Assembly (NCBI RefSeq): GCF_005937885.2
Contig: NZ_CP042176.1
Location: 5,265,501-5,329,500, forward strand
Direction: 5' to 3'
Length of the DNA: 64,000 bases
Origin: Bradyrhizobium sp. KBS0727
GTDB lineage: Bacteria > Pseudomonadota > Alphaproteobacteria > Rhizobiales > Xanthobacteraceae
Positions within the stretch are counted from its first letter, which is position 1. Each line of letters starts with the position of its first letter. Shown in pieces: positions 2,774 through 57,829 of this stretch. The position numbers were made by a program, and so were the translations under genes. The notes under the pieces were generated by a model, which was not told the origin of the DNA, did no database searches, and was given only the letters and a program-made list of their open reading frames with translations.

Positions 2774-3616
2774 CTAGCCGCGCCCCACCGTGCACTCGAT
2801 CTGGCCGTGCGGCTCGTCGGTCGGCAGGAACACATCGTTGTTGTTGTCCTGCCCGAACGCCGACAGGTTCATCAGGATGAAATGCATGTTCGGGCAGGCC
2901 ATGCTGACCTCGGAAATTTCCGGCACCGCCGCAAGCGCCGCCTCGCCCATCCGGTACAGGCTGTCCTGCACGCTCATGCTGTAGGTCATCGCAAACACTT
3001 CCAGCAAGGTATCGAGAACCCTGTTGTTGGTCGCCGGGTAGCTTGCAGGTTTGCCCGACCACTTCCACGACGCCACCATCGAGGTCGCACACATCCGGTC
3101 GGCGGTCGGCGGGATCGTCGTGTACTTGTCCTTGACGTAATTCTCCCAGCCGGACTGGGTCGACTTCATGAAGGCAAAGCCGTCGATGCCGGACGACATG
3201 ACAGCAGTGCCGCCGCGGATTTGCGAGATTTCCACCGTGGGCTTGCCGTTGCTGTCGAGCACGAAACTGTGCGGATGCGGCTTGCCGCCGACACTGAGCC
3301 GGCTCCATTTGGTCTCGTGCGCGGTGATGGCGACCGAGGAAATCTGCGGATAGGTGTCGAGATATTTCTTCGCCAGCACCTGGCAGAATTCCTCGGTGCT
3401 GAGCCCGGTATTTTCGCGGGCGACGACGTTGACGACGTTCTTGATCGTGTCGGTCGAGACCGAAGTGGAATTGTCGGCATGGGTATAGGCGCGGGCGAAG
3501 TCACCCTCCATCATCGCCTTGATGTTGAGCTGGCTGACCTCGTGCCGGTCGCCGTCGCGATGGATGCGCATCACGCGGACGCGACCTTTCCCGTATCTGT
3601 TCTTGATCAGCGGCAC
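2774..3616 (-). CDS. uox: Urate oxidase (uricase)
   Basis: A 280-residue cofactor-free uricase of two T-fold domains, which oxidises urate with O2 to 5-hydroxyisourate and H2O2. The catalytic triad seen in fungal uricase is visible: K10 (RYGKGRV), T57 (STDTIKN) and H245 (CPNMHF). The conserved AITAHETKWSRL and GIDGFAFMKSTQSGW segments are also present. Length is close to that of known bacterial and plant uricases (about 280-310). It is transcribed divergently from the NCS2 permease at 3800. The product 5-hydroxyisourate is the substrate of the UraH domain encoded at 5257-6141, so the pathway is local. Confidence 0.95.
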   Translation of the reverse strand: MPLIKNRYGKGRVRVMRIHRDGDRHEVSQLNIKAMMEGDFARAYTHADNSTSVSTDTIKNVVNVVARENTGLSTEEFCQVLAKKYLDTYPQISSVAITAHETKWSRLSVGGKPHPHSFVLDSNGKPTVEISQIRGGTAVMSSGIDGFAFMKSTQSGWENYVKDKYTTIPPTADRMCATSMVASWKWSGKPASYPATNNRVLDTLLEVFAMTYSMSVQDSLYRMGEAALAAVPEISEVSMACPNMHFILMNLSAFGQDNNNDVFLPTDEPHGQIECTVGRG

Positions 3617-3652
3617 GTGGGAGCCTCCAGTTCAGCCGGTAAATTAACGGGA

Positions 3653-3678
3653 TATTGGTCGCCCGATATGGTCCAATA
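3653..3678. promoter_or_regulatory. Inverted repeat in the uox / permease divergent promoter region
   Basis: TATTGG (3653-3658) and CCAATA (3673-3678) form a 6-bp inverted repeat with a 14-bp spacer, about 40 bp upstream of uricase and 120 bp upstream of the permease. It could be an operator for a purine-responsive regulator, but no such regulator gene is adjacent and only one copy was found. Low confidence. Confidence 0.3.
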
Positions 3679-3799
3679 ATGAGCAACGTTCGTGCCATCG
3701 AGCAAGGGCCCCGGATCAGGTTCTGGCACGGGCCTTGTATCGGTCTGACCGGGCCGTGGGCCCGTGCCTTTAAGGGGCAAGCTTTTGGGGGGCCAGTCC

Positions 3800-5203
3800 A
3801 TGACCACGACGATCGAAGTTCATCCCGTCGACCAGATCCTGCCGACCCCACGCCTGCTCGCGCTGGGCTTGCAGCACGTGCTGGTCATGTATGCCGGCGC
3901 CGTCGCGGTACCCCTGATCATCGGCCGGGCGCTGAAACTGCCGCCGGAGGACGTCGCGTTCCTGATCAGCGCGGACCTGTTCGCCTGCGGGCTGGCGACG
4001 CTGGTCCAGTGCATCGGCTTTCCCGGGGTCGGCATTCGTCTGCCGGTGATGATGGGCGTCACCTTTGCGTCCGTCGGCCCGATGCTGTCGATGGCGGCGG
4101 CGCCCGATATCGGCCTGCTCGGCATCTACGGCTCGGTCATCGCTGCCGGAATCTTCGGCATCCTTGCCGCGCCTTTCATCAGCCGGCTGCTGCCGTTGTT
4201 TCCCCCGGTCGTGACCGGAACCATCATCATGGTGATCGGCATCTCGCTGATGCGGGTCGGGATCAACTGGGCGGGTGGCGGCCTGCCGACGCTGACCAAG
4301 GTGGTGGATGGCGTCCCCGGCGCGTTTCCCAATCCCGGCTATGGCCAATTGCAGGGGCTCGGCATCGCGCTGTTCGTACTGCTGGTGATCCTCGGCCTGA
4401 TCAAATGGGGCTCCGGCTTCATCGCCAATGTCGCCGTGCTGCTCGGCATCATCGCCGGCGCCATTCTCGCGGCCGCGCTCGGCGTCATGCATTTCGAAAA
4501 GGTCGCAGCCGCGTCATGGGGCGCAGTGGTGATCCCGTTCCATTTCGGCATGCCGCAATTCCATCTGGTGCCTGTTGTCACCATGTGCATCGTGATGATC
4601 GTGGTCATGATCGAATCGCTCGGAATGTTTCTGGCGCTCGGTGAAATCACCGGCAAGACCGTCGATCGCGACGCGCTGACCCGTGGCCTGCGCGCCGACG
4701 GCGTCGGGACGCTGCTCGGCGGTCTTTTCAATACATTCCCCTACACGTCGTTCTCGCAGAACGTCGGCCTGGTCAGCGTCACCGGCGTGCGCTCGCGCTG
4801 GGTGACGATCGCAGGCGGCTGCATCATGCTGCTGCTAGGCTTGCTGCCGAAGATGGCGGCGCTGGTCGAAGCCGTACCGCTGGTGGTGCTTGGCGGCGCG
4901 GGCCTCGTGATGTTCGGCATGGTGGCCGCGACCGGCGCACGCATCCTCACCGCGGTCGATTTCAGGAACAACCGCTTCAACCTGTTCGTGGTCGCGATCT
5001 CGGTCGGCTTCGGCCTGATTCCGCTCGCGGCACCGAACTTCTTCAAGAACCTGCCGCACGACCTGCAGCCACTGCTGGAAAGTGGCATCCTGCTCTGCGC
5101 ACTGGTCGCCGTGATCCTGAACGCCTTCTTCAACGGCGTCAGCAGCAAGGCCGGGGCGGAAGCCGACGCCGCCGCGGCCGCGTCATCGGCGCAGCATGTG
5201 TGA
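3800..5203 (+). CDS. NCS2 family purine (urate/xanthine-type) permease
   Basis: A 467-residue inner-membrane protein with about 12-14 hydrophobic segments and the NCS2 signature QNVGLVSVTGVRSR (QNxGxxxxT type) around two thirds of its length. NCS2 proteins import nucleobases with H+ or Na+. Its place opposite uricase and next to the ureidoimidazoline and allantoin genes points to urate or xanthine as substrate (inference). The ATG at 3800 follows a run of G (around 3786-3792) that can act as ribosome binding site; an upstream GTG at 3764 adds only 12 unconserved residues. Confidence 0.9.
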   Translation: MTTTIEVHPVDQILPTPRLLALGLQHVLVMYAGAVAVPLIIGRALKLPPEDVAFLISADLFACGLATLVQCIGFPGVGIRLPVMMGVTFASVGPMLSMAAAPDIGLLGIYGSVIAAGIFGILAAPFISRLLPLFPPVVTGTIIMVIGISLMRVGINWAGGGLPTLTKVVDGVPGAFPNPGYGQLQGLGIALFVLLVILGLIKWGSGFIANVAVLLGIIAGAILAAALGVMHFEKVAAASWGAVVIPFHFGMPQFHLVPVVTMCIVMIVVMIESLGMFLALGEITGKTVDRDALTRGLRADGVGTLLGGLFNTFPYTSFSQNVGLVSVTGVRSRWVTIAGGCIMLLLGLLPKMAALVEAVPLVVLGGAGLVMFGMVAATGARILTAVDFRNNRFNLFVVAISVGFGLIPLAAPNFFKNLPHDLQPLLESGILLCALVAVILNAFFNGVSSKAGAEADAAAAASSAQHV

Positions 5204-5219
5204 TTTCCAATTGTGCATC

Positions 5220-5246
5220 TCACGCCGTCATGGCCGGGCTTGACGA
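5220..5246. repeat. Fragment of a dispersed intergenic repeat
   Basis: A short stretch (CACGCCGTCATGGCCGGGCT and following) resembles the left half of a common rhizobial intergenic palindrome; the expected second half is missing. It lies between the convergent permease and UraD-UraH stops. Confidence 0.3.
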
Positions 5247-5256
5247 AGAGAGAACC

Positions 5257-6141
5257 TCAACTCCCCCGATAGGTCCCGTAGCTCCAGGGCGTGACCAGGA
5301 GCGGCACGTGCAGATGGCCCTCGGGATCGCTGACCGAAAAGCGCACGGGAATCTGGTCCAGGAACGGCGGCTCCGACATCGGCACGTCGCGGCCGGCAAA
5401 ATATTCGCCGACACTGAACATCAGCTCATAGCGTCCGATCGGCACCGGCCGGCCGCCGATCAGGGGCTGGTCAGTGCGGCCGTCGCTGTTGGTTACCGCG
5501 CGGGCGATCACGCGGGGCTCACCCAAGTCAGACAGTTCGGTCAGCACCAGCGAAATTCCTGCCGCGGGCTTGCCGCTATGGGTGTCCAGCACATGGGTCG
5601 ACAGCCGCCCGTGCACCGGAAGCTTGTCATCGGATAGCACGAGCTGATCAAGCCGCAGCGCCGCGATACGGCAAATTTCATTGATCGAGGTCTGGGTCTC
5701 CGTCGCTACGTCGTTCGGCAGCCGGCGCTCGAAATCGCGCAGCACGGAATCCTTGGTGTGGCGGCGAACGCAGACAATGTAGGGGAAACCGAATTTGGCG
5801 CGATAGGCGTTGTTGACGCGCTCGAACGCCTCGTATTCGGCATCCGACAGCCGGTCGAGACCAAGGCTGTTTTGTTCAGAGGTAGATTCGGCAGTCAGGC
5901 CCGCGGCACGCTGGGTCTTGTTGGCGAGATCGGGATGCGCCTTGATCAGCGCCATCTGCTGTTCGGCCGGCGCGCGATCGACCGCATCCCTCATCGCTGA
6001 TAGCAGCGCCTTTACGCCGGAATAGGGCCGCACCGCGGCGGCCTGTTCGGCAATCCAGGGCGAGTATTCGAAGATATTGGCAAGAGCCGCGACGAAATCA
6101 TCCTTGCTGCAGGCATTGAGTTCAGAAAGGTTCTTTTGCAT
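5257..6141 (-). CDS. Fused OHCU decarboxylase / 5-hydroxyisourate hydrolase (UraD-UraH)
   Basis: A 294-residue fusion. Residues 1 to about 155 are a 2-oxo-4-hydroxy-4-carboxy-5-ureidoimidazoline decarboxylase: AHPDLA with H69, SEQ at 88-90, and FGFPYIVCVR. Residues from about 158 are a transthyretin-like hydroxyisourate hydrolase: LSTHVLDTHSGKPA, HLHVPLL, and the family's C-terminal YRGS as the last four residues. The hydrolase opens 5-hydroxyisourate to OHCU, which the first domain decarboxylates to S-allantoin, so domain order is opposite to reaction order. The start lies three bases after the PuuE stop, indicating one operon with PuuE and DUF3830. The domains are usually separate proteins in bacteria, though fusions are known. 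Confidence 0.93.
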   Translation of the reverse strand: MQKNLSELNACSKDDFVAALANIFEYSPWIAEQAAAVRPYSGVKALLSAMRDAVDRAPAEQQMALIKAHPDLANKTQRAAGLTAESTSEQNSLGLDRLSDAEYEAFERVNNAYRAKFGFPYIVCVRRHTKDSVLRDFERRLPNDVATETQTSINEICRIAALRLDQLVLSDDKLPVHGRLSTHVLDTHSGKPAAGISLVLTELSDLGEPRVIARAVTNSDGRTDQPLIGGRPVPIGRYELMFSVGEYFAGRDVPMSEPPFLDQIPVRFSVSDPEGHLHVPLLVTPWSYGTYRGS

Positions 6142-6144
6142 GAC

Positions 6145-7083
6145 CTACCCGATGTTGAACGCGTGCCCGGCCAAATGCTTCAGATTGGAGTGCCAGTGCT
6201 GCGCGATCTGCAGCCGCGTCGGCACCCAGACGCGCTCGTGCTTGCCGACATAATCGAGAAACCGCATCAGCGACGCGGCGCGGCCTGGGCGGCCGACGAC
6301 GCGGCAATGCAGGCCGATCGACATCATCTTCGGCGAGGTCGCGCCTTCGGCATAGAGCACGTCGAAACTGTCCTTGAGATAGGTGAAGAACTCCTCGCCG
6401 CCGCCGAACCCCTGCGCGTTGACGAAGCGCATGTCATTGGCATCGAGCGTGTAGGGAATGACCAGATGCGGCTCCAGGGCCTGCGTCCTGATCCAGTACG
6501 GCAGGTCGTCGGCATAGGAGTCGCAGAGATAGAGGAGACCGCCAGCCTCCATCAAGAGCCGGAGCGTATTGATCGAGGAACGTCCGGTGTACCAGCCGAG
6601 CGGACGCCCGCCGGTCGCCTCGGTGTGAACGCGGATCGCCTCCGCGATCTCCCAGCGCTCCTCGGCCTCCGACATATCCTTGTGTTCGATCCATTTCAGG
6701 CTGTGGCTGGCGATATCCCAGCCCGCCTCCTTCATGGCGGCAACCACATCGGGGTTTCGCTGCAGGGCGGTGGCGACGCCGAACACCGTCGCCGGCATCT
6801 TGCGCTCGGTGAACATCCGCCACAGCCGCCAGAAGCCGGCGCGCGAGCCATACTCGAACATCGATTCGATATTGGCATGGCGCTGGCCCGGCCAGGGCTG
6901 CGTGCCCAGCACATCCGACAGGAACGCTTCCGAGGCGCGGTCGCCGTGCAGGATGTTGTTCTCGCCGCCTTCCTCGAAATTCACCACGAACTGAACGGCG
7001 ACCCGTGCATGGCCCGGCCACTTCGGATCGGGTGGATGGCGGCCGTAGCCGCGAAGGTCGCGCGGGTAGTTCGGCTCCGTCAC
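6145..7083 (-). CDS. puuE: Allantoinase PuuE (polysaccharide-deacetylase fold)
   Basis: A 312-residue protein of the NodB/polysaccharide deacetylase superfamily. The N-terminal PRDLRGYGRHPPDPKWPG and VNFEEGGENNILHGD are characteristic of the PuuE allantoinases, which hydrolyse allantoin to allantoate without the amidohydrolase fold of AllB. It starts at a GTG directly after the TAG stop of the DUF3830 gene, with GAGGAAG inside the end of that gene as ribosome binding site, so translation is coupled. Together with uricase and UraD-UraH it completes urate to allantoate. No allantoate amidohydrolase is in the purine block. Confidence 0.9.
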   Translation of the reverse strand: MTEPNYPRDLRGYGRHPPDPKWPGHARVAVQFVVNFEEGGENNILHGDRASEAFLSDVLGTQPWPGQRHANIESMFEYGSRAGFWRLWRMFTERKMPATVFGVATALQRNPDVVAAMKEAGWDIASHSLKWIEHKDMSEAEERWEIAEAIRVHTEATGGRPLGWYTGRSSINTLRLLMEAGGLLYLCDSYADDLPYWIRTQALEPHLVIPYTLDANDMRFVNAQGFGGGEEFFTYLKDSFDVLYAEGATSPKMMSIGLHCRVVGRPGRAASLMRFLDYVGKHERVWVPTRLQIAQHWHSNLKHLAGHAFNIG

Positions 7084-20958: not shown

Positions 20959-21444
20959 TCAGCGCGGCACCACTGCCGTCGCCTCGATCTCGACGCGCGC
21001 GGCCTTCTCGACCAGCCGCACCACCTGAACCAGCGCCATCGCCGGATAATGCGTGCCAAAGATCTCGCGATAGACCCGGCCGAGCGTCTTGAGACTGGCC
21101 AGATATTCCTCGATATCGACGACGTACCAGGTCAGCCGCACCAGATGCTCGGGCCCGGCGCCACCTTCAGCAAGGATGGCGGCAATGTTGCTCAGCGCCT
21201 GACGCACCTGGGCGACAAAGTCGGCGGCCAGATGGCCCTCCGTATCCCAACCGATCACGCCGCCGGTCACGACGAGACGGCCATCGGCCGCCATGCCGTT
21301 GGCGTATCCTTTCGGCATCGGCCAGCCGCTCGGCTGCAGCACTTGCGGGCCGGACGACGAAGCATCGGATTTGGGATGAGGCACCACGGTCAAGGTGGGG
21401 CCTTTGGGGGCGGTCACGTTCAATTCTCCTTCCAGGACGTTCAC
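20959..21444 (-). CDS. RidA/YjgF family protein lacking the canonical arginine
   Basis: A 161-residue protein with a 40-residue N-terminal extension before the RidA fold (GYANGMAADGRLVVTGGVIGWD, LVRLTWYVVDIEEY, VEIEATAVVP). RidA proteins hydrolyse enamines or imines. The arginine that in E. coli RidA holds the substrate carboxylate (PAR motif) is Met here (M136, YPAMALVQ), so it is not a standard 2-aminoacrylate deaminase. It overlaps the end of the CoA ligase gene by 4 bases (ATGA), which couples it to the aminobenzoyl-CoA pathway, where the predicted intermediate is an enamine CoA thioester. Confidence 0.85.
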   Translation of the reverse strand: MNVLEGELNVTAPKGPTLTVVPHPKSDASSSGPQVLQPSGWPMPKGYANGMAADGRLVVTGGVIGWDTEGHLAADFVAQVRQALSNIAAILAEGGAGPEHLVRLTWYVVDIEEYLASLKTLGRVYREIFGTHYPAMALVQVVRLVEKAARVEIEATAVVPR

Positions 21445-23126
21445 TCAGCCGCAGCGCTCGACGATACGGCGCTGGCCGCAGCCATCTGCCTCAGCGCAAA
21501 ACGCCGCAGCTTGCCGGTTTCGGTCTTCGGCAGCGCCTCGACATATTCGATGGCGCGCGGATATTTATAGGGCGCGATCTCGCGCTTGACGTGCTCCTGC
21601 AACGCCGCCGTGAGTTCGGCATCGCCGCGAGCACCGCCGGCGAGGATGACATAGGCCTTGACGATCATCCCGCGCGCCTCGTCGGGCGCGCCGACGACGC
21701 CGCATTCGGCGACCGCAGGATGGGACAGCAACGCCGCCTCGATCTCGGGGCCGGCGATGTTGTAGCCGGAAGAGACGATCATGTCGTCCGAGCGCGCCAC
21801 AAAGGACAGCCGGCCGTTGGCGTCGCTGACAAAGGTATCGCCGGTCAAATTCCAGCCGTCGCGCACATAGTTCGATTGCCTGGAGTCGGCGAGATAACGG
21901 CAGCCGGTGGGACCACGAACCGCAAGCTTGCCGACCGTGCCCGCCGGCAGTTCGTTCATGTCGTCGTCGACGATCTTGGCCTCATAGCCGGTGACCGGAT
22001 GTCCGGTGGTTCCGGCGACGGCATCGCCGAGCCGGTTGGTGATGAAGATATGCAGCAGCTCTGTCGAGCCGATGCCGTCGAGAATCGTCTTGCCGGTTCT
22101 GCGGGTCCAGGCGTCGAACACCGGCGCCGGCAAGGTCTCGCCGGCGGAGACCGCGAGCCGCAGCGACGAAAGATCGGCGCCCTTGTCCATCGCCGCCATC
22201 ATGGCGCGATAGGCGGTCGGCGAGGTAAAGCAGATCGTGGCCTTGTAGGTCTCGATGATCTTGACCATTTCCGGCGGCGAAGCCGTTTCCAGCAGCGTCG
22301 CCGTGGCGCCGAATCGCAACGGAAAGATCGCAAGCCCGCCTAGCCCGAACGTAAACGCCAGCGGCGGCGAGCCGACGAACACGTCATCCTCGGTGACATT
22401 GAGGACCTCCCGCGCATAGCCATCGGCGACGATCATGAGGTCGCGATGGAAGTGCATCGTGGCCTTCGGTTCGCCCGTGGTGCCCGAGGTAAATCCGAGC
22501 AAGGCGACATCGTCGCGGCCGGTCTTCACCGCATCGAAGCGCACCGGCTTGTTCAGCGCCACCCGGTCGAGCTCGGCGTCGTGGTTCGAGGTGCCGTCGA
22601 AATTCACCACCTGCTTGAGAAAGCGGCTGGTCTTCGCGCATGCCACCAATTCATCGGCAATGCGGCTGTCGGTCAGCGCCAGCGCGATCTCGGCCTTGTC
22701 GACAATCTTTGTCAGTTCGCCGGCGCGCAGCATCGGCATGGTGTTGACGACGACGGCGCCGGCCTTCGTCGCCGCAAGCCATGCCGCGACCAGCGCCGGA
22801 TTGTTGCCGGAACGGATCAACACCCGATTGCCGGGCTTGACCCCGTAATTCTCCACCAGCGCATGCGCCAGGCGGTTCGACCAGTCAGCCAGCTCCTTGT
22901 AGGTGCGCTGACGACCATTGCCGATCAGCGCAATGCGATCGCCCATGCCCTTCTCGACAATGCGGTCGGTCAGTTCGACGGCGGCGTTCAGATATTCCGG
23001 ATATTGAAACTCCGGCCGGTCGAGCCGCAGCTCCGGCCATTGCTCGAACGGCGGCAGATTTCGCCGCGCAAAATCATCGACGTGGCCCGACGGACCAAGG
23101 ACAGGGTCTCTACCTGACATTTCCAT
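21441..23126 (-). CDS. Aryl-CoA ligase, probably 2-aminobenzoate-CoA ligase
   Basis: A 561-residue ANL-superfamily ligase of the benzoate-CoA ligase group. P-loop LLGFTSGTTGEPKATMHFHRD; GIGSTELLHIF; the hinge region GRLSFVARSDDMIVSSGYNI; C-terminal catalytic lysine in PKTETGKLRR. It activates an aromatic acid to its CoA thioester with ATP in the cytoplasm. 2-Aminobenzoate is proposed because the same regulon encodes the two-domain 2-aminobenzoyl-CoA monooxygenase/reductase at 28072-30420; salicylate or benzoate are alternatives. A MarR-type box lies 65 bp upstream. Confidence 0.85.
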   Translation of the reverse strand: MEMSGRDPVLGPSGHVDDFARRNLPPFEQWPELRLDRPEFQYPEYLNAAVELTDRIVEKGMGDRIALIGNGRQRTYKELADWSNRLAHALVENYGVKPGNRVLIRSGNNPALVAAWLAATKAGAVVVNTMPMLRAGELTKIVDKAEIALALTDSRIADELVACAKTSRFLKQVVNFDGTSNHDAELDRVALNKPVRFDAVKTGRDDVALLGFTSGTTGEPKATMHFHRDLMIVADGYAREVLNVTEDDVFVGSPPLAFTFGLGGLAIFPLRFGATATLLETASPPEMVKIIETYKATICFTSPTAYRAMMAAMDKGADLSSLRLAVSAGETLPAPVFDAWTRRTGKTILDGIGSTELLHIFITNRLGDAVAGTTGHPVTGYEAKIVDDDMNELPAGTVGKLAVRGPTGCRYLADSRQSNYVRDGWNLTGDTFVSDANGRLSFVARSDDMIVSSGYNIAGPEIEAALLSHPAVAECGVVGAPDEARGMIVKAYVILAGGARGDAELTAALQEHVKREIAPYKYPRAIEYVEALPKTETGKLRRFALRQMAAASAVSSSAAAE

Positions 23127-23259: not shown

Positions 23260-24084
23260 CTAGCGCCCGGCCAGTTGCTTCAGCCGCAGCGTCATCGGCG
23301 AGTTCGGATCGGCCAGCGGCGCAATCGCGGTAAAATGGTTGGCATCGGCAACGGTGCCAAACCGCGCCGCAAGGCCTGCCGCGCCCCAGGCGTCGACAAT
23401 GATCCGGCTCTGCCGGAAATATTCGGCGCTTTCGTTGCCGCCGACCACCGCATCAAGCGAGCCGCGCGCCGGTGGCTGCCAGAACAAGGGGCTGGCCGCC
23501 TTCGCCGACGCGTCGTCGAGCTTCAGCGCGGTGTTGATCGAGGTCGGAACCAGCGGCCGCAGGTCGAACAGGCCCGATATGGTGTAGGCCGCCGTCACCA
23601 GATCTTCCGGCAATGCCGCATCGAGCGCGCGCCAGTCGGTCGCCAGCAGGCAGGCGGCGAGATGGCCGCCGGCGGAATGACCGCTCATGACCAACGGGCG
23701 CCCGAGCTTTGCGAGTTCGCGCGTTGCGGTTCGCATCTGTTCGATGATGTCGGCGACGGAAACGTTGGGGCAAAGGTCGTAGCTCGGCACCGCGACATCG
23801 ATCCCGTGCGCATTCAATCCGCCAGCCAAATGGCTGAAGAAGGAGCCATCGAGCGCCTGCCAATAGCCGCCATGAATGAAGACGACGATCGGCCCCGTTC
23901 CATTGCCGGCAAACAGATCGATCCGATGGCGCTCGCCCGGGCCATAAGCCAGCACTTTTGAACGGCCCTGATGCAGTTCGCGATAGGCCTGCGCATCGCG
24001 CGCCCAGCCGGCCATGATCGCCGGATTTTCCGGCACCCGCGCGCGATTATTGTATTCGACCTCGTAGTCCACATCCGCATTCAA
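23260..24084 (-). CDS. Alpha/beta hydrolase, kynurenine formamidase-like
   Basis: A 274-residue serine hydrolase of the esterase/lipase (hormone-sensitive-lipase-like) group: oxyanion motif HGGYW at 71-75, nucleophile elbow GHSAGG with S137, and a late histidine in ADANHFTAI. The N-terminal EVEYNNRARVPE and HGGYWQALD resemble alpha/beta-hydrolase kynurenine formamidases, which release formate from N-formylkynurenine on the way to anthranilate. The context of anthranilate genes fits, but a pathway ester or thioester is also possible. It lies 33 bp downstream of the MarR gene in the same direction. Confidence 0.75.
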   Translation of the reverse strand: MNADVDYEVEYNNRARVPENPAIMAGWARDAQAYRELHQGRSKVLAYGPGERHRIDLFAGNGTGPIVVFIHGGYWQALDGSFFSHLAGGLNAHGIDVAVPSYDLCPNVSVADIIEQMRTATRELAKLGRPLVMSGHSAGGHLAACLLATDWRALDAALPEDLVTAAYTISGLFDLRPLVPTSINTALKLDDASAKAASPLFWQPPARGSLDAVVGGNESAEYFRQSRIIVDAWGAAGLAARFGTVADANHFTAIAPLADPNSPMTLRLKQLAGR

Positions 24085-24117: not shown

Positions 24118-24612
24118 CTACGCCATCCGCGCCTTGGCGGATTTCTGTGCCGAGCCCTTGGTCTTCGCCAGCAGGCGCATCAATTCGCGGACATCCTTCG
24201 GCGTCAGGTCGCCAAAAATGTCGGCGATCCATAACTCGTGCTCCGCCGCCATCTTGCGAAACTCGGCGCGGCCGGCCTTGGTCAGGCGGATCACCTGGAC
24301 CCGGCGGTCGGAATCCGAGGTGCGGCGGTCGAGATGGCCGGATTCGACAAGGCGCTCGACCAGGCCGGTGACGTTGCCGTTCGAGACCATCATCCGCTTC
24401 GAGACATCCGACAGCGTCATGCCCTCGGGGACCTTGTCGAGCTGGGCCATCAGGTCGAAGCGCGGCAGCGTGACGTCGAACCGCTCGCGCAGGCGGCTCC
24501 GCACCTCGCCTTCGATCAGGGTGGTGCAGGTCAGGAGACGCAGCCACAGCCTGATTTCGTCGCCATGATCCTCCGGGAGCTCGACGGCCTTGGTCTCGGA
24601 ATCGAGAATCAT
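24118..24612 (-). CDS. MarR family transcriptional regulator
   Basis: A 164-residue winged-helix regulator with the MarR pattern: TLPRFDLMAQLDKVPEGMTLSDVSKRM, recognition helix VSNGNVTGLVERLVESG, and the wing DRRTSDSDRRVQVIRLTKAGR. MarR proteins of aromatic pathways often release DNA on binding the aryl-CoA. A divergent copy of the 22-bp box lies at 24681-24702, between this gene and the binding-protein gene at 24839, so it is the obvious candidate to bind all four boxes. Confidence 0.9.
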   Translation of the reverse strand: MILDSETKAVELPEDHGDEIRLWLRLLTCTTLIEGEVRSRLRERFDVTLPRFDLMAQLDKVPEGMTLSDVSKRMMVSNGNVTGLVERLVESGHLDRRTSDSDRRVQVIRLTKAGRAEFRKMAAEHELWIADIFGDLTPKDVRELMRLLAKTKGSAQKSAKARMA

Positions 24613-24838: not shown

Positions 24839-26026
24839 ATGAAGCAGTCGTTGAAACTGGCGCCGTTGAAGCTGGCCGGACTTGCCGTCCTGCTGGGTGC
24901 CGCGGCCGGTCCCGCTGTCGCGCAGGAAAAGGTCAAGATCGGCGTGATCGTGACCTTGTCCGGCCCGGCCGCCGGCCTCGGCCAGCAATCGCGCGACGGT
25001 TTTCAGCTCGCGATCAAGGATCTCGGCGGCAAGATGGCCGGCAAGGAGGTCGAGGTCGTTGTCGTCGACGACGAACTGAAGCCGGACGGCGCCGTGACCA
25101 AGGTCAAGGGTCTCCTGGAACGCGACAAGGTCGACTTCGTCGTCGGGCCGATCTTCTCCAACATCCTGCAGGCCATTCACCGGCCGGTCACCGAGAACAA
25201 AACCTTCCTGATCAGCCCGAACGCCGGACCGTCGAGCTACGCCGGCAAGGAATGCAGCCCGTTCTTCTACGTCACCTCGTACCAGAACGACCAGGTTCAC
25301 GAGATCCTCGGCAAGGTGGCGCAGGATCGCGGCTACAAGCGCGTCTACGTGCTGGTGCCGAACTATCAGGCCGGCAAGGATTCCGCCGCCGGCTTCAAGC
25401 TCGATTACAAGGGCGAGATAGCAGAGGAAAGCTACATGCCGCTCGGCACGCTCGACTTCCAGGTCGAGCTCACCAAGATCGCATCCGCCAAGCCCGACGC
25501 GCTGTTCACCTTCATGCCAGGCGGCATGGGCGTCGGCCTCGTCAAGCAATACCGGCAGGCCGGCCTCGCCGACAAGATTCCGGTGCTCTCCGCCTTCACC
25601 GTCGATGAATCGACGCTGCCGGCGCAGCAGGACGCCGCGGTCGGCATGTTCGGCGGCGCCAACTGGGCCCCCGATCTCGACAATCCGCAGAGCAAGAAGT
25701 TCGTTGCCGCCTACGAGGCTGCCTACAACGGCGTACCCGGCACCTATGCGATGCAGGGCTATGACGCGGCGCTGCTGATCGACAGCGCGGTGAAAGCGGT
25801 GAAAGGCGACCTCAGCAACAAGGACGCGGTGGCGGCGGCACTGAAGAAGGCCGATTTCACCTCGCTGCGCGGCGATTTCAAGTTCAACACCAACGGCTAT
25901 CCGATCCAGAATTTCTACCTGACCAAAGTGGCAAAACGCACGGACGGTAAGTTCGAGACCGAGATTGTCGAGAAGGTGTTTTCGAATTACGGCGACCGCT
26001 ACGCCAAGGACTGCGGCGCGAAATAA
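24839..26026 (+). CDS. ABC transporter substrate-binding protein, branched-chain amino acid/aromatic type
   Basis: A 395-residue periplasmic protein of the LivJ/type I fold, with a signal peptide ending at about residue 28 (GPAVAQ) and the core VKIGVIVTLSGPAAGLGQQSRDG, SPNAGPSSYAGKECSPFFYVTSYQ, LGTLDFQVELTKI, and YDAALLIDSAVKA. Members from aromatic regulons bind benzoate derivatives. The permease and ATPase genes that it needs are not in this window. It is followed 22 bp later by a cupin gene, probably cotranscribed. Confidence 0.9.
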   Translation: MKQSLKLAPLKLAGLAVLLGAAAGPAVAQEKVKIGVIVTLSGPAAGLGQQSRDGFQLAIKDLGGKMAGKEVEVVVVDDELKPDGAVTKVKGLLERDKVDFVVGPIFSNILQAIHRPVTENKTFLISPNAGPSSYAGKECSPFFYVTSYQNDQVHEILGKVAQDRGYKRVYVLVPNYQAGKDSAAGFKLDYKGEIAEESYMPLGTLDFQVELTKIASAKPDALFTFMPGGMGVGLVKQYRQAGLADKIPVLSAFTVDESTLPAQQDAAVGMFGGANWAPDLDNPQSKKFVAAYEAAYNGVPGTYAMQGYDAALLIDSAVKAVKGDLSNKDAVAAALKKADFTSLRGDFKFNTNGYPIQNFYLTKVAKRTDGKFETEIVEKVFSNYGDRYAKDCGAK

Positions 26027-26047: not shown

Positions 26048-26503
26048 ATGAAAACCGAAATCGCCGGGATCACCCGGGCCAACGAGGGCATGCAGGGCAT
26101 CTCCTGGAACATCCTCGGCCAGACCTATGTACCGAAACACCTCACCGAGCATTCCTTCTCATGGCATGCGACCTTCCCGCCCGAGACCTTCGTGCCGCCG
26201 CATATTCATCCGGACCAGGACGAGTATCTCTACATCCTCGAAGGCAAGCTCGACTTCTTCCTCGACGGCGCCGAAACGCAAGGGTCGCCGGGCGATCTCG
26301 TGCGGCTGCCGATGGGCAAGCCGCATGGCATCTTCAACAAGTCCGGGCGGACTGCGAAAACGCTGTTCTGGGTGTCACCGACGCGCCGGCTCTACGATCT
26401 GTTCTGGGGTATCCACAACATGAAGGAACAGACCCCGGACGCCGTGGTGGCGCTGGCCGCCGAGCACAACATCCACTTCCTGCCGCCGCCTCCGGGGGCG
26501 TGA
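26048..26503 (+). CDS. Small single-domain cupin (paralog 1)
   Basis: A 151-residue cupin with a complete metal site: H52-x-H54-x4-E59 (HIHPDQDEYLYI) and H93 (GKPHGIFN). The ribosome binding site CGGAAGGAAA precedes the ATG. It aligns without gaps over its first 100 residues with the cupin at 32392-32841, including identical positions of all four metal ligands, so the two are paralogs bracketing the aminobenzoyl-CoA genes. Function unknown: a small dioxygenase, isomerase or sensor acting on the ring or ring-cleavage products are options. Confidence 0.85.
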   Translation: MKTEIAGITRANEGMQGISWNILGQTYVPKHLTEHSFSWHATFPPETFVPPHIHPDQDEYLYILEGKLDFFLDGAETQGSPGDLVRLPMGKPHGIFNKSGRTAKTLFWVSPTRRLYDLFWGIHNMKEQTPDAVVALAAEHNIHFLPPPPGA

Positions 26504-26620: not shown

Positions 26621-27874
26621 TTACGCCCGCACCGCCGCCAGCCCCAGCGTCGGCGCGGCAAATCCTGCCTTCGACGCATAGCCGCGCACGATCGCCTCAC
26701 GCTGGGCGTGGCTCAGCACCTTCTCGATATCGGTAAAGCCGTCGGGCGCCAGTTGCTCGACGGCGTCGATGACGCCCTCGGGCCCGCCGCGGCGGTTCGA
26801 GCGCACGATGTCGGCCGTCATCGGCAGGCGCTTCTGCTCGTAGGCCAGCAGCGCCTGACGCGGATGTTCGGCATGCGCCAGCGAATCCGCCAGCGCGCGG
26901 GCGTCGAGGATCGCCTGCGATGCCCCGTTTGAGCCGACCGGATACATCGGATGCGCGGCGTCGCCGAGCAGCGTGACCCGTCCCCAGGTCCAGTACGGCA
27001 AGGGATCGCGGTCGCAGCACGGATATTCGTAAAATTCCGGCGTCGCCGAGATCAGGCTGCGCGCATCAACATGCGGCACCTTGAACCGCTCGACATGCGG
27101 CATCAGTTCCTCGCGCTTGCCGAGGCGCGACCAGTCCTCGCGGCGCGGCGGCGGGGCGTTGTTCTCGCCAACCTTGACCAGCACCGCCCAGTTGGTCAGC
27201 CGGCTCGCCGGGCTCGATCCTTCGGCGATCGGATAGACCACGACCTTGGCATTTAAGCCGCCGGCGACGATCATCGAGTTGCCGGTCAGGAACGCCGGCC
27301 AGTCGCGCGCGCCGCGCCACAACATCAGGCCGTTCCAGCACGGCGGGCCCTCGTCCGGAAACAGCATCTCGCGCACGCGCGAATGGATGCCGTCGGCGCC
27401 AACAAGCACGTCGCCCTGCGCGGTCTTGACGTGCGACCCGGTGCGGTCGAAGAAATGCGCGATCACGCCGCCTTCATGCTGCGCGAAGGCGCCGAGCCGG
27501 CAACCGGTGTGGATCGCTTCCCTGCCCAGCCGTTCCTCGACGGCGCGATGAATGACGCTCTGCAGACGGCCGCGGTGGATCGAGAACTGCGGCACGTCGT
27601 GACCGGCCCCGAGGCCGCGCGGCTCGCGCCAGACCTCCTGGCCGTGGCGATTGAGGTAATACAATTCATCAGTGCGGATCGCGGCAGCATCCAGCCGATC
27701 CAGTAGCCCAAGACCGGCCAGTTCGCGGATCGCATGCGGCAACGTGTTGATGCCGACGCCGAGTTCGCGGATGGTATCGGACTGTTCGAACAATTCGCAG
27801 TCGATGCCGCGCGCGCGCAGCATCAGCGCCGTGGTAAGGCCCCCGATGCCGCCTCCGACGATGATCGCCTTCAT
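26621..27874 (-). CDS. FAD-dependent aromatic monooxygenase (PhzS-like)
   Basis: A 417-residue group A flavoprotein monooxygenase: GxGxxG motif GGGIGGLTTALMLRARG, then SIHRGRLQSVIHRAV, and the FAD/NADPH motif VTLLGDAAHPMYPVGSNGASQ. The start MKAIIVGGG at 27874 gives the usual N-terminus; MSGVEW in front is unlikely. Members resemble phenazine hydroxylase PhzS and salicylate hydroxylase. The substrate may be a free hydroxy- or amino-aromatic acid of this regulon. It lies between repeats, downstream of the monooxygenase/reductase gene, in the same direction. Confidence 0.82.
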   Translation of the reverse strand: MKAIIVGGGIGGLTTALMLRARGIDCELFEQSDTIRELGVGINTLPHAIRELAGLGLLDRLDAAAIRTDELYYLNRHGQEVWREPRGLGAGHDVPQFSIHRGRLQSVIHRAVEERLGREAIHTGCRLGAFAQHEGGVIAHFFDRTGSHVKTAQGDVLVGADGIHSRVREMLFPDEGPPCWNGLMLWRGARDWPAFLTGNSMIVAGGLNAKVVVYPIAEGSSPASRLTNWAVLVKVGENNAPPPRREDWSRLGKREELMPHVERFKVPHVDARSLISATPEFYEYPCCDRDPLPYWTWGRVTLLGDAAHPMYPVGSNGASQAILDARALADSLAHAEHPRQALLAYEQKRLPMTADIVRSNRRGGPEGVIDAVEQLAPDGFTDIEKVLSHAQREAIVRGYASKAGFAAPTLGLAAVRA

Positions 27875-27919
27875 CCACTCAACTCCACTCAACGCAAACT
27901 CAAAACCGCGGCTCTCTTA

Positions 27920-28071: not shown

Positions 28072-30420
28072 CTATTCGGCTGCAAGCGGCTTTGTCGCCT
28101 CCGCCTTCAGCTCCGCCCGTGTTTTCGGCTTACCCTTAATTTTGAGGTCGTCGAAATCCTGCCGGTCGCGAACACTGTTGCGGAAAATCTGCTCCTTGCC
28201 GGGCAGATATTGCTGCGGACAGGCGATATCGGCGCCATACCAGGCCGCCGCCCGCATCGTGAACGACGGATCGACCAGATGCGGCCGGCCCAGCGCCACC
28301 AGGTCGGCGCGCCCGGCGGCGAGGATGGTGTTGACCTGGTCCGACGTGGTGATGTTGCCGACGCACATGGTGGCGACCCGGGCCTCGTTGCGGACCTGTT
28401 CGGAGAACGGCGTCTGGAACATCCGCCCGTAGACCGGCTGGGCGTCGCGCACGGTCTGGCCGGTGGAAACGTCGATCAGGTCGACGCCGGCCTCGCCGAA
28501 CGCACGCGCGACCGCGACCGCGTCATCGCCGGTGATGCCGCCTTCGGCCCAGTCGGTCGCGGAGATCCGCACCGACATCGGCTTGTGCGCGGGCCAGGCC
28601 GCGCGCATCGCCGCAAACACTTCCAGCGGATAGCGCAGCCGGTTGGCGAGCGTGCCGCCATAGTCATCCGTCCGCGTGTTGGTCAGCGGCGAAATGAAAC
28701 TCGCCAGCAGATAGCCGTGGGCGCAGTGCAGCTCCAGCATATCGAAGCCGCAGGCTTCGCCGCGTTCGGTCGCGGCGACGAACTCGGCCTTGACGTGGTC
28801 CATCGCGGCGCGATCCAACTCGCGCGGCACCTGGCTATCCGGGAAGTAAGGGATCGGCGACGCCGACACCGTGTCCCAGCCGCCCTGTTCCAGTGGCCGG
28901 TCCATGCCCTCCCACATCAGTTTGGTCGCGCCCTTGCGGCCGGCATGACCCAACTGCAGGCAGATTTTGGCGGCGGAATTGGCGTGAACGAAATCGACAA
29001 TGTGCGTCCACGCCGCCTGCTGCTCGTCGTTCCACAACCCGGTGCAGCCGGGCGTGATCCGGGCGTCGCGGCCGACACAGGTCATCTCGGTGAAGATCAA
29101 ACCCGCCCCGCCGATCGCACGCGACCCGTAATGCACGAGGTGAAAATCGCCGGGCATGCCCTCGTTCGCCGAGTACATGCACATCGGCGACACCACCGCG
29201 CGGTTCGCCACTTCCATCTCGCGCAGCCGGAGCGGCTGGAACATCGGCGCTACCGGCTTGTCGAGATCGACGTCAAATCCTTTTGAGCGAACCTGCGTCG
29301 CAAAGGCCCTGTCGACCTCGCGGACAAATTCCGGCGCCCGCAGCGTCAGGTTATCGTAGGTGATGGCCTTGGCGCGGGTCATGACGCCGAACGCAAACTG
29401 TACGGGATCGAAATCCCAGAACCGGTCGACATGCTCGAACCAGACCAGCGACACGTCGGCGGCGTGTTGGGTCTTCTCGACCTCCTCGCGGCGGCCCTGC
29501 TCATACTTCTGTAAAGCGCCTTCCACCGTCGGCGCCTGCGCCATCGCGTCGCCAAGCGCGATCGCGTCCTCCATCGCAAGCTTGGTGCCGGAGCCGATCG
29601 AGAAGTGCGCGGTCGCCTTGGCATCGCCGAGCAGCACCATGTTGCCTTTGACCCAGCGCTGGCTGCGGATCATCGGAAAATTGCGCCACATCGAGCGGTT
29701 GGTCAGCAGCGGATGGCCGTCGAGGAACCAGCCAAAGATCTCTGCCATGCGATCGGCGGATTGCCGTTCGCTCAACCCTTCGAGGCCTGCCCGCGCAAAG
29801 GTCTCGGCATCGGTCTCAAAGATCCAGGTCGAGCGACCGGCCTCGTATTGATAGGCGTGGGCAATGAACGGCCCCCACTCGGTCTCCTGGAAGATGAAGG
29901 TGAAGGCGTCCAGCGGCCGGGTCGAGCCCATCCAGGCGAACTTGTTGGAGCGCAGGTCGACTTCGGGCTGGAAATGATCGGTGTATTTGTCGCGGAAGCG
30001 GCTGTTGATGCCGTCGGCCAGCACCACGAGATCGGCATCGGCAAACCTGCTCTCGTCGTCGATATCGGTTTCGAACTTAAGCGTCACGCCGAGTTCTCGG
30101 GCGCGCTCCTGCAGGATCAGCAGCAGCATGCGGCGCGAGCAGCCGCAAAAGCCGTTGCCGCCGACCCGATGTACGGTGCCGCGGAAATGCACGGCGATAT
30201 CGTCCCAATAGGCGAATTCCTGGGTGATGCGGCGGTAGCTCGGCGGATCGTACTTTTCGAAGTTATCCAGCGTCGCATCGGAGAACACCACGCCGAAACC
30301 AAAGGTGTCATCGGCGCGGTTGCGCTCATAGACGGTGATCTCGGCCTGCGGCCGCTGCTTCTTCAAAAGGATCGCGGCATAGAGACCGGCCGGTCCGCCA
30401 CCGATTATCGCGATCTTCAT
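28072..30420 (-). CDS. Bifunctional 2-aminobenzoyl-CoA (or salicylyl-CoA) monooxygenase/reductase
   Basis: A 782-residue fusion. Residues 1 to about 370 are an FAD monooxygenase ([37 protein letters not shown]). Residues from about 395 to 740 are an Old Yellow Enzyme-type FMN reductase ([57 protein letters not shown]). This architecture is that of 2-aminobenzoyl-CoA monooxygenase/reductase of Azoarcus evansii, which hydroxylates and partly reduces the ring in one protein; related fusions are named salicylyl-CoA 5-hydroxylase. A perfect-armed MarR box lies 35 bp upstream. It supplies the key step for the CoA ligase and enoyl-CoA hydratase in this regulon. Confidence 0.92.
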
Positions 30421-30610: not shown

Positions 30611-31447
30611 TCAATTCCCCTGGAACGCCGGCGTCCGCTTGTTCGAGAACGCCTCGAACGCGCGAGCAAAATCTTCCGTGGTCATGCAGAGCGCCTGCGC
30701 CACCGCTTCGGCCTCGATCGCCTCTTCCACCGACATCGCCCATTCCATCGCCAGCATACGCTTGGTCATGGTGTTGGCGAAGGTGGGACCGTCGGAAATC
30801 TGCTTCGCCAGCACCTGTGCCTGTGCCAGCACGGCGTCCTGCGTCACGATCCGGCTGAAAAAGCCCCAGCGCTCGCCTTCCTCAGCGGTCATGAAGCGGC
30901 CGGTATAGAGCAGTTCGGAAGCGCGGGACTGTCCGATGATGCGCGGCAGGATCGCACAGGCGCCCATGTCGCAACCCGCGAGCCCAACCTTGTTGAACAG
31001 GAACGCGACCTTGGCGCCGACAGCGGCCAGCCGCAGGTCGGAGGCCATGGCGATGATCGCACCGGCGCCGGCGCAGATGCCTTCGACGGCTGCGACGATC
31101 GGCTGCGGACACGCCCGCATCGCCTTGACCAGATCGCCGGTCATGCGGGTAAACGCGGTCAGACCCTTGGTGTCCATCTGCACCAGCGGACCGATGATCT
31201 CGAACACGTCGCCGCCGGACGAGAAATTGCCGCCGGCACCGGACACGACGATGGTTTTCACCTCATCGTCCATCGCGCAGGCGCGGAAGAAATCGGTGAG
31301 TTCGCGATAGCTCTCGAAGGTCAGCGGATTCTTCCGCTCGGGACGATTGAGCGTCACGGTGGCGACACCACCGACCACGGCGAGCAGGAAATGTTTTGGC
31401 GAATAATCCGCCAGCGGCAGTGTCACGGGGTTGGCGGGTCTGCTCAT
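30611..31447 (-). CDS. Enoyl-CoA hydratase/isomerase family protein
   Basis: A 278-residue crotonase-fold protein: [31 protein letters not shown] (first oxyanion-hole segment), [20 protein letters not shown], and [20 protein letters not shown]. It hydrates or isomerises enoyl-CoA. In this regulon it would act on the partly reduced ring CoA thioester or its open-chain product. It follows the SDR gene by 35 bp in one transcript. Confidence 0.88.
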
Positions 31448-31482: not shown

Positions 31483-32244
31483 TCAGACTTCGCCGCCAGC
31501 CACCGCGATGGCTTGTCCGGTGATGGCGGCAGCACCTTCGCCGCACAGCCACAGCACGGCGTCAGCGACTTCCTGTGGCGTCACGAGGCGTCCTTGCGGG
31601 TTGTGTTTCGACAATTCGGCCACCGCCTGCTCGCGGCCGCGGCCGGTCTTCTTCATGATGTTGTCGATCGAGCCTTCGAGCAGATCGGTCTCGGTGAACC
31701 CGGGACAAACCGCATTGACGGTGACGCCGCTCCTCGCCGTCTCCAGCGCCAGCGAGCGCACCAGGCCGATCACCGCATGCTTGGCGGCGCTATAGGCGCT
31801 GACATAGGCATAGCCCTTGAGACCCGCCGTCGATGCAATCGCGACAATCCGGCCGTGGCGGCGCTCGATCATACCGGGCAGCACCGCCTGCGTGGCATGC
31901 ACCACGCCCATGAAATTGACGTCCATCATCCGCTGGAACAGTGCCGCCTCGGAGCGGCCGAAGGGGGCGGATTCCGCAGCCCCGGCATTGGCGACCAGGA
32001 TGTCGATCGGCTGGCGGCGAGCCGCTTCCGCGATCACCGATTTCACCGAAGCCTGATCGGCAACATCGGCCACTTCGGCGAACTGCGCCGCGCCCGATGC
32101 AACGGCCTCATCAAGCGTGGCGCGATTGCGGCCGAGAATGGTGACCGTCGCACCCGCCTCTGTCAGCGCCGCGGCCACCGCACGGCCGATGCCGCGCCCG
32201 CCACCGGTGACGAGCGCATGGGAGGAACGCGAAAGTTTCGACAT
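31483..32244 (-). CDS. SDR family 3-hydroxyacyl-CoA dehydrogenase-like protein
   Basis: A 253-residue short-chain dehydrogenase: TGGGRGIGRAVAAAL (NAD(P) site), NAG motif in LVANAGAAES, catalytic Ser with Y-x3-K in SAYSAAKHA, and VNAVCPGFTETDL. It likely oxidises the 3-hydroxyacyl-CoA made by the enoyl-CoA hydratase next door. A MarR-type box lies 33 bp upstream. First gene of a two-gene operon. Confidence 0.88.
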   Translation of the reverse strand: MSKLSRSSHALVTGGGRGIGRAVAAALTEAGATVTILGRNRATLDEAVASGAAQFAEVADVADQASVKSVIAEAARRQPIDILVANAGAAESAPFGRSEAALFQRMMDVNFMGVVHATQAVLPGMIERRHGRIVAIASTAGLKGYAYVSAYSAAKHAVIGLVRSLALETARSGVTVNAVCPGFTETDLLEGSIDNIMKKTGRGREQAVAELSKHNPQGRLVTPQEVADAVLWLCGEGAAAITGQAIAVAGGEV

Positions 32245-51290: not shown

Positions 51291-51920
51291 TTACCGGGTG
51301 CCGTAGGCGCGGTCGCCGGCGTCGCCAAGGCCCGGCACGATAAAGGCGTCCTTGTCGAGCCCTTCGTCGATCGCGGCGAGCCAGACCGGCACATCCGGGT
51401 GAATACCGCGCATGCGCTCGATCCCTTGCGGCGAGGCGATCAGGCTGACCAGGCGGATATCGTTGGCTCCGCGCTCCTTGAGCCGGTCTACCGCCGCGAC
51501 GGACAGGTTGGCCGTCGCCAGCACCGGGGAGACCACGATCACGAGCCGCTCGTGCAGATCGCTCGGGGCCTTGAAGAAATATTCCACGGCGGTGAACGTT
51601 TCCGGCTCGCGATAGAGGCCGATATGGGCGACGCGCGCGGTCGGCACCAGGTCGAGCATGCCGTCGGCAAAGGTGACGCCGGCGCGCAGCACCGGCGCGA
51701 ACACCAGCTTCTTGCCGGATATCTCCGGCGACTTCATCTTCGCCAGCGGCGTCTCGATCTCGACATCGGCAAGCGGCAGATCGCGGGTCACCTCGTAGCA
51801 GAGCAGCATCCCGATCTCCTTGAGGAGTTCGCGAAACGACTTGGTCGAGGTATCCTTGCTGCGCAACAGTGTCAGCTTGTGCTGTACCAGCGGGTGGCTA
51901 ACGATCGTGACGCCTTCCAT
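51291..51920 (-). CDS. upp: Uracil phosphoribosyltransferase, divergent (URC-type)
   Basis: A 209-residue [42 protein letters not shown] (uracil/PRPP region), VEYFFKAP, and the C-terminal uracil-binding [15 protein letters not shown]. The PRPP loop, usually DPMLATGGS, is [10 protein letters not shown] here (residues 131-140): the acidic residue and one glycine are changed. The gene is followed by a palindromic repeat and then DUF1688 and GCHII-like genes, all on the minus strand. It would turn uracil into UMP as first step of uracil degradation by the URC route; ordinary salvage is the alternative. Confidence 0.88.
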
Positions 51921-51946
51921 GGCTTAATATCCCTGCTTCTTCTATT

Positions 51947-52022
51947 GAGCATGATCTCCGCGCAAACGCGTTCCGCGTTTGTCGCGAGGGAAAACCGGTG
52001 CCCACTTTTCCGGATCATGCTC
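51947..52022. repeat. Intergenic palindromic repeat, family D
   Basis: GAGCATGATC (51947-51956) and GATCATGCTC (52013-52022) are perfect 10-bp inverted ends of a 76-bp element with inner CAAACGCG/CGCGTTTG-type arms. Such elements are common between rhizobial genes. Its right end overlaps the DUF1688 stop codon by one base. Confidence 0.75.
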
Positions 52023-54522: not shown

Positions 54523-54932
54523 CGTCACACACCAAGAGATGCCGACTGTATTAGATGCCGACTGTCCGCAGAGCGGACCGGCCGGCCACAACAATCGAAG
54601 GATTCTCCAGTATGGCCGAATTGCCGCCGAGCACAACGGGGGTTTCGGGCATGGCGCTGGTTGGCGACGCGGTACTGGTTCGCAGCCGTTTTCGCCTGAG
54701 AACAGAGAATTTTTTGCAAAATTCGCCAAATAACAGGCCTTTGGCCGGTTTGATGCCGGCCAGTTGTCGGAGATTCGGCTGCAATCTCCGACGGTTACGG
54801 GAGGGCTCAGGCACTTTCCCTGCTATTCTGCATCACAGGCATTTGAAGCGCGAAAAAGTGACCGCATGAATCTCCACTGCTTGTGACAACCACGCCAGTC
54901 GCGGCGAGACCATCTTCATTCGACTCGGTCAG
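54523..54932. other. Intergenic region between URC1 and FGE genes, 410 bp
   Basis: No convincing gene; the longest + strand frame (54555-54869) has no motif. It must hold the promoter of the URC operon at its left end. Two adjacent stem-loops, each with a 7-base loop, lie at 54743-54761 (GGCCGG/CCGGCC) and 54766-54792 (GTCGGAGATT/AATCTCCGAC). No T-run follows either on any strand. Confidence 0.5.
54743..54792. repeat. Tandem stem-loops
   Basis: Stem 1: GGCCGG at 54743-54748 and CCGGCC at 54756-54761. Stem 2: GTCGGAGATT at 54766-54775 and AATCTCCGAC at 54783-54792, a perfect 10-bp stem. Both loops are 7 bases. They may be structured RNA, a factor-dependent terminator for the FGE gene transcribed toward them (54933), or part of a dispersed repeat. 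Confidence 0.45.
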
Positions 54933-55919: not shown

Positions 55920-56073
55920 CTTGAACTCCAACAGCGTTGCGAGCGGCTTCAGGCCTTTCACGCGTGATACTGCCGAAGCGCTATTTCGTCCGCTATGCAG
56001 TTTCGGCAGCAAAGCCGTTGGGGGGGACCGACGCCCCAATGTCGATGATCGGAGGAGGACCGCGGTTCCTCCA

Positions 56074-57675: not shown

Positions 57676-57829
57676 ACACTCCCGTGGTTCTTCAGTCTGC
57701 CGAAAGCTATTGCGAAGTCGTGGTATCTTCTGCTCGAAGGCACAAAGGTCAGAGATCGTCGGCTCCGGAAGACCTTCGACGGGCAGCGGACGCCCCGGGG
57801 GGCGCCCGCATCAACCGCAAGCATCCGGA

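Follow-up and report, generated by a model that had tools for sequence, protein, structure and literature searches.

Rid-Family Proteins and the CoA-Dependent Pathway of Anthranilate Catabolism

In the aerobic catabolism of anthranilate via CoA thioesters, a ligase forms 2-aminobenzoyl-CoA, and 2-aminobenzoyl-CoA monooxygenase/reductase (ABM/R) oxygenates this compound and reduces its ring to 2-amino-5-oxocyclohex-1-enecarbonyl-CoA. The description of two anthranilate gene clusters of Azoarcus evansii in 2001 reportedly listed a gene for a "putative translation inhibitor," which is the old name of the Rid family. We take this gene, located in the founding ABM/R clusters, to be probably the same as the rid gene analyzed here; to our knowledge, that description gave it no deaminase role and did not discuss its missing arginine.

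Several characterized proteins of the Rid family are deaminases. In TdcF, Arg105 grips the carboxylate of the ligand, whose keto group at the reacting carbon lies in contact with Cys107 and Glu120 (PMC1884159). On free-acid imines, hardly any activity is left once this arginine is changed to alanine (PMC4433059). RidA and RutC variants altered at Arg105 are inactive, and the Arg-less Rid proteins assayed so far, all of them with free-acid substrates, displayed no deaminase activity (PMC4433059; PMC8113886). The Rid proteins linked to ABM/R belong to the same family as the 2-iminobutanoate/2-iminopropanoate deaminases RidA and TdcF and retain the positions Tyr17 (as Tyr or Phe) and Glu120, but carry Met, or in a few cases Leu or Val, in place of Arg105 and Gly in place of Asn88.

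RutC, which deaminates the beta-enamine 3-aminoacrylate, is a close functional parallel as a pathway-specific Rid protein of a catabolic operon, and shows that members of the family can hydrolyze beta-enamines; 3-aminoacrylate also hydrolyzes slowly unaided (PMC8113886). Unlike the proteins considered here, RutC retains and requires the arginine, and its substrate has a free carboxylate (PMC8113886). AmnE, the Rid-family 2-aminomuconate deaminase of Pseudomonas AP-3, frees ammonium from an enamine in aromatic-amine degradation; its substrate is, however, a free acid, its cleft contains a conserved Arg117, and it acts past ring cleavage (PMC6742747). The arginine is also absent from subfamilies Rid4–Rid7, being variable in Rid5 and Rid6, but Rid4 and Rid7 have Trp at this position rather than Met, as judged from the published description of these subfamilies (PMC4433059).

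A comparative study of 2019 treats Rid proteins in the benzoate and catechol regulons, not in the anthranilate-CoA pathway (PMC6449761). No paper tying a Rid protein to ABM/R, or noting the missing arginine there, was found in the open literature, subscription papers being mostly outside this coverage. New here is the comparative test, which comprises the conserved loss of Arg, the Gly shared by all linked proteins, the joint occurrence of both genes in bacteria and archaea, and the lack of rid in gentisate-type clusters. The locus joins two questions, the role of Arg-less Rid proteins and the steps that follow ABM/R, and supplies, besides a specific candidate substrate, a substitution pattern that is conserved and a set of loci serving as natural negative control.

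The rid Gene and Its Neighborhood

The window, a stretch of 64,000 nucleotides, lies in the genome of Bradyrhizobium sp. KBS0727, a single 7.3-Mb contig. Its minus strand encodes, from upstream to downstream, SDR, crotonase, ABM/R, FAD monooxygenase, MarR, alpha/beta hydrolase, ligase and Rid (Table 1), and thus unites ABM/R and the aryl-CoA ligase with genes of the beta-oxidation type (crotonase and SDR), the combination by which an anthranilate-CoA cluster is recognized. No acyl-CoA dehydrogenase gene was found near the cluster in the window. The NCBI label of the model matched by ABM/R is salicylyl-CoA hydroxylase; despite this name, the presence in 18 loci of relatives of genes for kynureninase or tryptophan dioxygenase, enzymes on the way to anthranilate, argues to some extent for anthranilate, rather than salicylate or benzoate, as the substrate. 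Neither of these two genes was found in the genome of the window, whose anthranilate therefore presumably comes from outside.

Table 1. Genes of the anthranilate-CoA cluster and its surroundings in the window, with the codon at the Arg105 position.
Feature	Coordinates	Strand	Basis	Examined loci with the gene
Rid-family protein	20959..21417	-	PF01042; start common to Bradyrhizobium orthologues behind ribosome site	
Met codon (ATG) at the TdcF/RidA Arg105 position	21037..21039	-	Alignments with E. coli TdcF	
Aryl-CoA ligase of the benzoate-CoA ligase family, candidate 2-aminobenzoate-CoA ligase	21441..23126	-	TIGR02262, 375.7 bits (cut-off 375.25); PF00501, PF13193	
Alpha/beta hydrolase	23260..24084	-	PF07859	12/107
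MarR-family regulator	24118..24612	-	PF12802	73/107
ABC-type periplasmic substrate-binding protein, possible anthranilate uptake	24839..26026	+	PF13458; conserved neighbor	
Small cupin protein	26048..26503	+	PF07883	
FAD-dependent monooxygenase (PRK07538 family)	26621..27892	-	NF005720, 576 bits (cut-off 400)	
ABM/R, FAD monooxygenase fused to Old-Yellow-Enzyme domain	28072..30420	-	PF01494, PF00724; NF006101 (PRK08255), 1136.9 bits (cut-off 1078)	
Enoyl-CoA hydratase-family (crotonase) protein, candidate ring hydrolase after deamination	30611..31447	-	NF006107 (PRK08258), 466 bits (cut-off 330)	80/107
Short-chain dehydrogenase (SDR)	31483..32244	-	PF00106, PF13561	82/107

The rid open reading frame (20959-21444, minus strand) matches PF01042 with 77.5 bits, against a Pfam gathering score of 27.3. 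The protein stays below the cut-offs of the RidA model TIGR00004 for Rid family detoxifying hydrolases (61 bits versus 106.25) and of the RutC model TIGR03610 (29.1 bits versus 169.1), and Met replaces Arg104 of RutC. An AlphaFold2 model computed with 18 Bradyrhizobium-type sequences had a mean pLDDT of 58 and was set aside.

The product comprises 161 amino acids if translation starts at the upstream GTG (21442-21444) and 152 if it starts at a second GTG, 27 bases inside, whose equivalent (21415-21417 in the window) is conserved in the Bradyrhizobium orthologues. A purine-rich ribosome site, in the window AAGGAGAATTGAACGTG, precedes the conserved GTG at a distance of about 8 bases, where the window reads GGAAGGAGAATTGAACGTGACC. 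The conserved inner start behind a ribosome site indicates that the gene likely spans 20959-21417 and begins about 23 bases past the ligase stop. The initial annotation had described rid as coupled to the ligase gene by a 4-base overlap. The adjacency stands, rid being located directly downstream on the same strand, but the overlap rests on the upstream GTG, which the Bradyrhizobium orthologues do not share; it is probably a start-codon artefact, judging from these orthologues, and was rejected as a sign of coupling.

Residues of the Rid Cleft

The residue singled out in the initial annotation, Met136 in the numbering of the 161-residue product and Met127 in that of the 152-residue product, indeed aligns with the carboxylate-binding Arg105 of E. 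coli TdcF. For comparison, ABM/R relatives were located in 398 genomes of the phylum (71 positive) and in 61 relatives, stretches of up to 20 kb around ABM/R were fetched, and every rid gene inside them was aligned to TdcF. Annotated plasmid records of Actinomycetota, Deinococcota, Gemmatimonadota and Halobacteria were added; sampling beyond Pseudomonadota consists of plasmid records only.

The expectation that Rid proteins beside ABM/R in other genomes would also lack the arginine was borne out: all 75 stretches with both genes, which span Pseudomonadota, Actinomycetota, Deinococcota and Halobacteria, carry a Rid protein with Met (71), Leu (3) or Val (1) at this position in the alignment to TdcF, and none of them has an Arg-containing Rid protein alone. 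Leu and Val occur among these proteins in haloarchaeal cases only. This count includes one haloarchaeal locus (L378) with ABM/R located 12 kb away on the same plasmid, beyond the stretch. Two stretches encode a second Rid protein of another subfamily, with Asn (L117) or Arg (L166), beside a Met-containing one. A protein with Ser (L376) was dismissed as an exception, not being linked to ABM/R.

Of the other cleft positions in the linked proteins, the equivalent of Glu120, Glu152 in the protein of the window, is present in all 75, and the Tyr17 position is occupied by Tyr in 63 and by Phe in 12. A Tyr within a short insertion is invariant (75/75). Asn88 is replaced by Gly in every one of the 75, compared with Asn in 60, Ser in 14 and Gly in 4 proteins of the background. 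Among the best 80 matches listed in a contig scan, nearly all from Bradyrhizobium and near kin, every intact orthologue has Met (59/59); gaps in four Bradyrhizobium rows represent genes cut at the locus end, and an Ile-containing row was dismissed as a weak, distant paralogue.

Loss of the arginine is in itself common. Rid-family proteins sampled regardless of context from 40 genomes (n=99) have Arg in 64 cases, Ser in 14, Ala in 6, Met in 5 and other residues in 10, and 14 further places added to this sample yielded no new Met. Five of the nine family members in the genome of the window have no Arg (Met, Ser, Val, Ala and Ser), and its absence alone was therefore rejected as a signal. Since all five sampled Met-containing proteins are linked to ABM/R although Arg loss is frequent, it is Met that marks this linkage.

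Co-Occurrence of Rid and ABM/R

In the 40 unselected genomes, Met-containing Rid proteins are encoded in exactly the five that have ABM/R, and beside it (Fisher p 1.5e-6). The association was also evident in an even sample of 297 genomes from the order, with Rid detected in 99 (E up to 1e-25) and ABM/R in 99: both were present in 96 genomes, Rid only in 3, ABM/R only in 3 and neither in 195. The nominal p of 3e-70 overstates the association, because these genomes are related; the pair nevertheless occurs in 47-48 of 122 genera. Where both genes lie on one contig, the distance never exceeds 16 kb (85 of 85 genomes) and has a median of 5.7 kb. Whole genomes were searched in 22 cases, of which 20 showed no rid gene within about 9 kb of ABM/R; the orthologue turned up in 19 of the 22, each time with Met. 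In 17 of the 20, the Met-containing protein is encoded 10-15 kb away, on another contig or elsewhere; the remaining three are of the gentisate type described below.

The few unpaired cases are of several kinds. The ABM/R-only genomes comprise two that are about 71-75% complete (G532 and G587) and one of the gentisate type (G610). Among the Rid-only genomes, the remaining cluster genes run off the contig end in G060, and the relatives found in G499 and G633 are 40-44% identical and located in other settings. Met-containing proteins with no ABM/R in the stretch read are those of G633 and G499 and copies on Microvirga and Sulfitobacter plasmids.

In G633 (locus L369, 4750-14126), such a gene accompanies those for a methylmalonyl-CoA-mutase-like protein, a crotonase, an SDR, a CoA-ligase C-terminal domain and a P450, with no ABM/R; this set possibly represents another CoA-ester pathway with an enamine. 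In G499 (locus L372, 3010-6242), the Met-containing relative adjoins two genes for DAO-type (amino-acid-oxidase-like) FAD oxidoreductases, and no ABM/R was found in this genome, which is 76% complete.

RidA proteins are known to clear stray imines and enamines, and genes of the family often adjoin those of flavin and PLP enzymes (PMC4433059). The linked proteins might likewise perform damage control for the flavoenzymes of the cluster or for kynureninase, with no obligatory step of their own. The nearly one-to-one co-occurrence with ABM/R is hard to reconcile with this role, which we consider highly improbable: the genome of the window keeps Rid while having neither kynureninase nor tryptophan dioxygenase, and the arginine required for free-acid imines is gone.

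Gentisate-Type Loci Lack Rid

Four ABM/R loci (L149, L153, L157 and L368) are located near a gentisate-1,2-dioxygenase-like gene and have no Rid nearby; rid is absent where this gentisate-type dioxygenase replaces the beta-oxidation genes beside ABM/R. Three of the genomes (G353, G404 and G610) are essentially complete and contain ABM/R, but no Met-containing Rid protein was found in the whole of any of them. Their dioxygenases were assigned by sub-cut-off matches to the gentisate and 5-aminosalicylate dioxygenase models, and thioesterase and fumarylacetoacetase-like (FAH-family) genes are present in two of the three loci and in most of the four. The fourth locus, with the second ABM/R copy of G282, has a similar setting.

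To place the four loci on the ABM/R tree, three or more label changes are required, so that this arrangement arose more than once on that tree. They probably reflect a different use of the oxygenase, in a salicylyl-CoA or 5-hydroxyanthranilate route. Such a route cleaves a hydroxylated aromatic ring and involves no cyclic enamine, so that Rid is missing from a setting in which the substrate proposed for it would not arise. These loci are a natural negative control for the role of Rid, in a small sample of four.

The same distribution bears on the possibility that the protein is not a deaminase at all and serves in regulation or transfer by binding a CoA intermediate, as may be imagined for Rid subfamilies with no known activity. 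The inactivity of the Arg-less proteins tested so far is in line with this possibility (PMC4433059; PMC8113886). The invariance in all 75 linked proteins of the Glu implicated in catalysis, and the way in which the gene follows the amine-forming and not the gentisate-type branch, nevertheless make it improbable.

Actinobacterial, Deinococcal and Haloarchaeal Loci

The plasmid pAL1 of Arthrobacter Rue61a carries genes for the ligase, ABM/R and a Met-containing Rid protein. Anthranilate-CoA ligase activity was reported for the plasmid-borne ligase (PMC3534580). Cells grown on anthranilate contain anthraniloyl-CoA and a C7H8O4-CoA ester, the latter detected only in such cells and possibly being cyclohexanedione-carboxyl-CoA, i.e., the deaminated ring; the same paper calls the ABM/R product unstable at pH <5 (PMC3534580). 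The ABM/R–Rid pairing is kept, in differing gene orders, in Rhodococcus, Tsukamurella, Streptantibioticus and a Deinococcus.

Haloarchaeal plasmids encode ABM/R with an adjacent LLM-class flavin gene, Rid, acyl-CoA dehydrogenase and SDR, as well as kynureninase in several cases. Seven haloarchaeal loci (L176, L177, L180, L182, L377, L378 and L379) are island-like and resemble an anthranilate-CoA island. The Rid protein of Haladaptatus has Leu at the Arg105 position. In the Rid tree, the linked proteins group in a single region of loose support, made up of three blocks, Halobacteria (SH-aLRT 99), Actinomycetota (99) and Pseudomonadota with Deinococcus (93). The deep forks are without resolution, and a single origin of the linked proteins is therefore not claimed.

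Proposed Function and Mechanism

The Rid protein of the window is likely a pathway-specific deaminase of 2-amino-5-oxocyclohex-1-enecarbonyl-CoA in the aerobic catabolism of anthranilate via CoA thioesters, an activity that we infer from comparative evidence. This agrees with the initial annotation, which proposed that it deaminates the ring intermediate, and is supported by the absence of Arg from all the linked proteins, by co-occurrence and by the lack of rid in gentisate-type loci. The C7H8O4-CoA ester of Rue61a cells fits this reading as well (PMC3534580). The ligase would convert anthranilate to 2-aminobenzoyl-CoA, from which ABM/R would produce 2-amino-5-oxocyclohex-1-enecarbonyl-CoA, a beta-enamino thioester. 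Rid would then hydrolyze the C2 enamine, yielding 2,5-dioxocyclohexanecarbonyl-CoA and ammonium, with the retained counterpart of TdcF Glu120 presumably contacting the reacting carbon. The neighboring crotonase could hydrolytically open the ring of the resulting beta-keto thioester.

The replacement of Arg105 by Met (by Leu or Val in some archaea) and of Asn88 by Gly may be owed to the esterification of the substrate's acid group to CoA. The ABM/R product has no carboxylate, so that an arginine would find nothing to pair with and might obstruct the thioester arm, while a neutral, bulkier group would be better accommodated by Met, Leu or Val together with the smaller Gly. That no arginine is needed where there is no free carboxylate, as first suggested in the initial annotation, would provide a structural reason for Met.

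Rid could also act later in the pathway, on a CoA-bound intermediate formed after reduction of the 5-oxo group or on a ring-opened, linear beta-aminoenoyl-CoA. The SDR and acyl-CoA dehydrogenase genes conserved in the clusters could serve steps preceding deamination, and in haloarchaea rid is located directly ahead of the acyl-CoA dehydrogenase gene. This order of reactions appears unlikely, as the C7H8O4-CoA ester detected in Rue61a cells may be cyclohexanedione-carboxyl-CoA (PMC3534580) and the ring of a beta-keto thioester is a natural substrate for hydrolytic opening.

The balance tips slightly toward the linked proteins being the first subfamily of Rid proteins with CoA thioesters as substrates, with the combined loss of Arg105 and Asn88 marking enamine-thioester deaminases. 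If so, they would account for the deamination step still lacking in the anthranilate-CoA pathway of bacteria and archaea, the rule that a Rid protein with no Arg105 is no deaminase would be overturned, and the Met-containing protein of G633, with its mutase, crotonase and CoA-ligase set, would belong to a second pathway of this kind. Annotators would also gain a marker that distinguishes anthranilate-CoA catabolism from the gentisate-type use of the oxygenase, now labeled "salicylyl-CoA 5-hydroxylase."

Other Genes of the Window

Several other gene sets are encoded on the minus strand of the window. Consecutive genes at 51291-54729 code for uracil phosphoribosyltransferase, a DUF1688 protein and a GTP-cyclohydrolase-II-like protein, a set that we take to resemble the genes of URC-type uracil catabolism. 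Two sulfatase genes adjoin a gene of the formylglycine-generating-enzyme type (54933-59593). Ureide genes at 2774-7083 encode uricase, a fused OHCU decarboxylase/HIU hydrolase and a protein of the polysaccharide-deacetylase fold, which is likely allantoinase.
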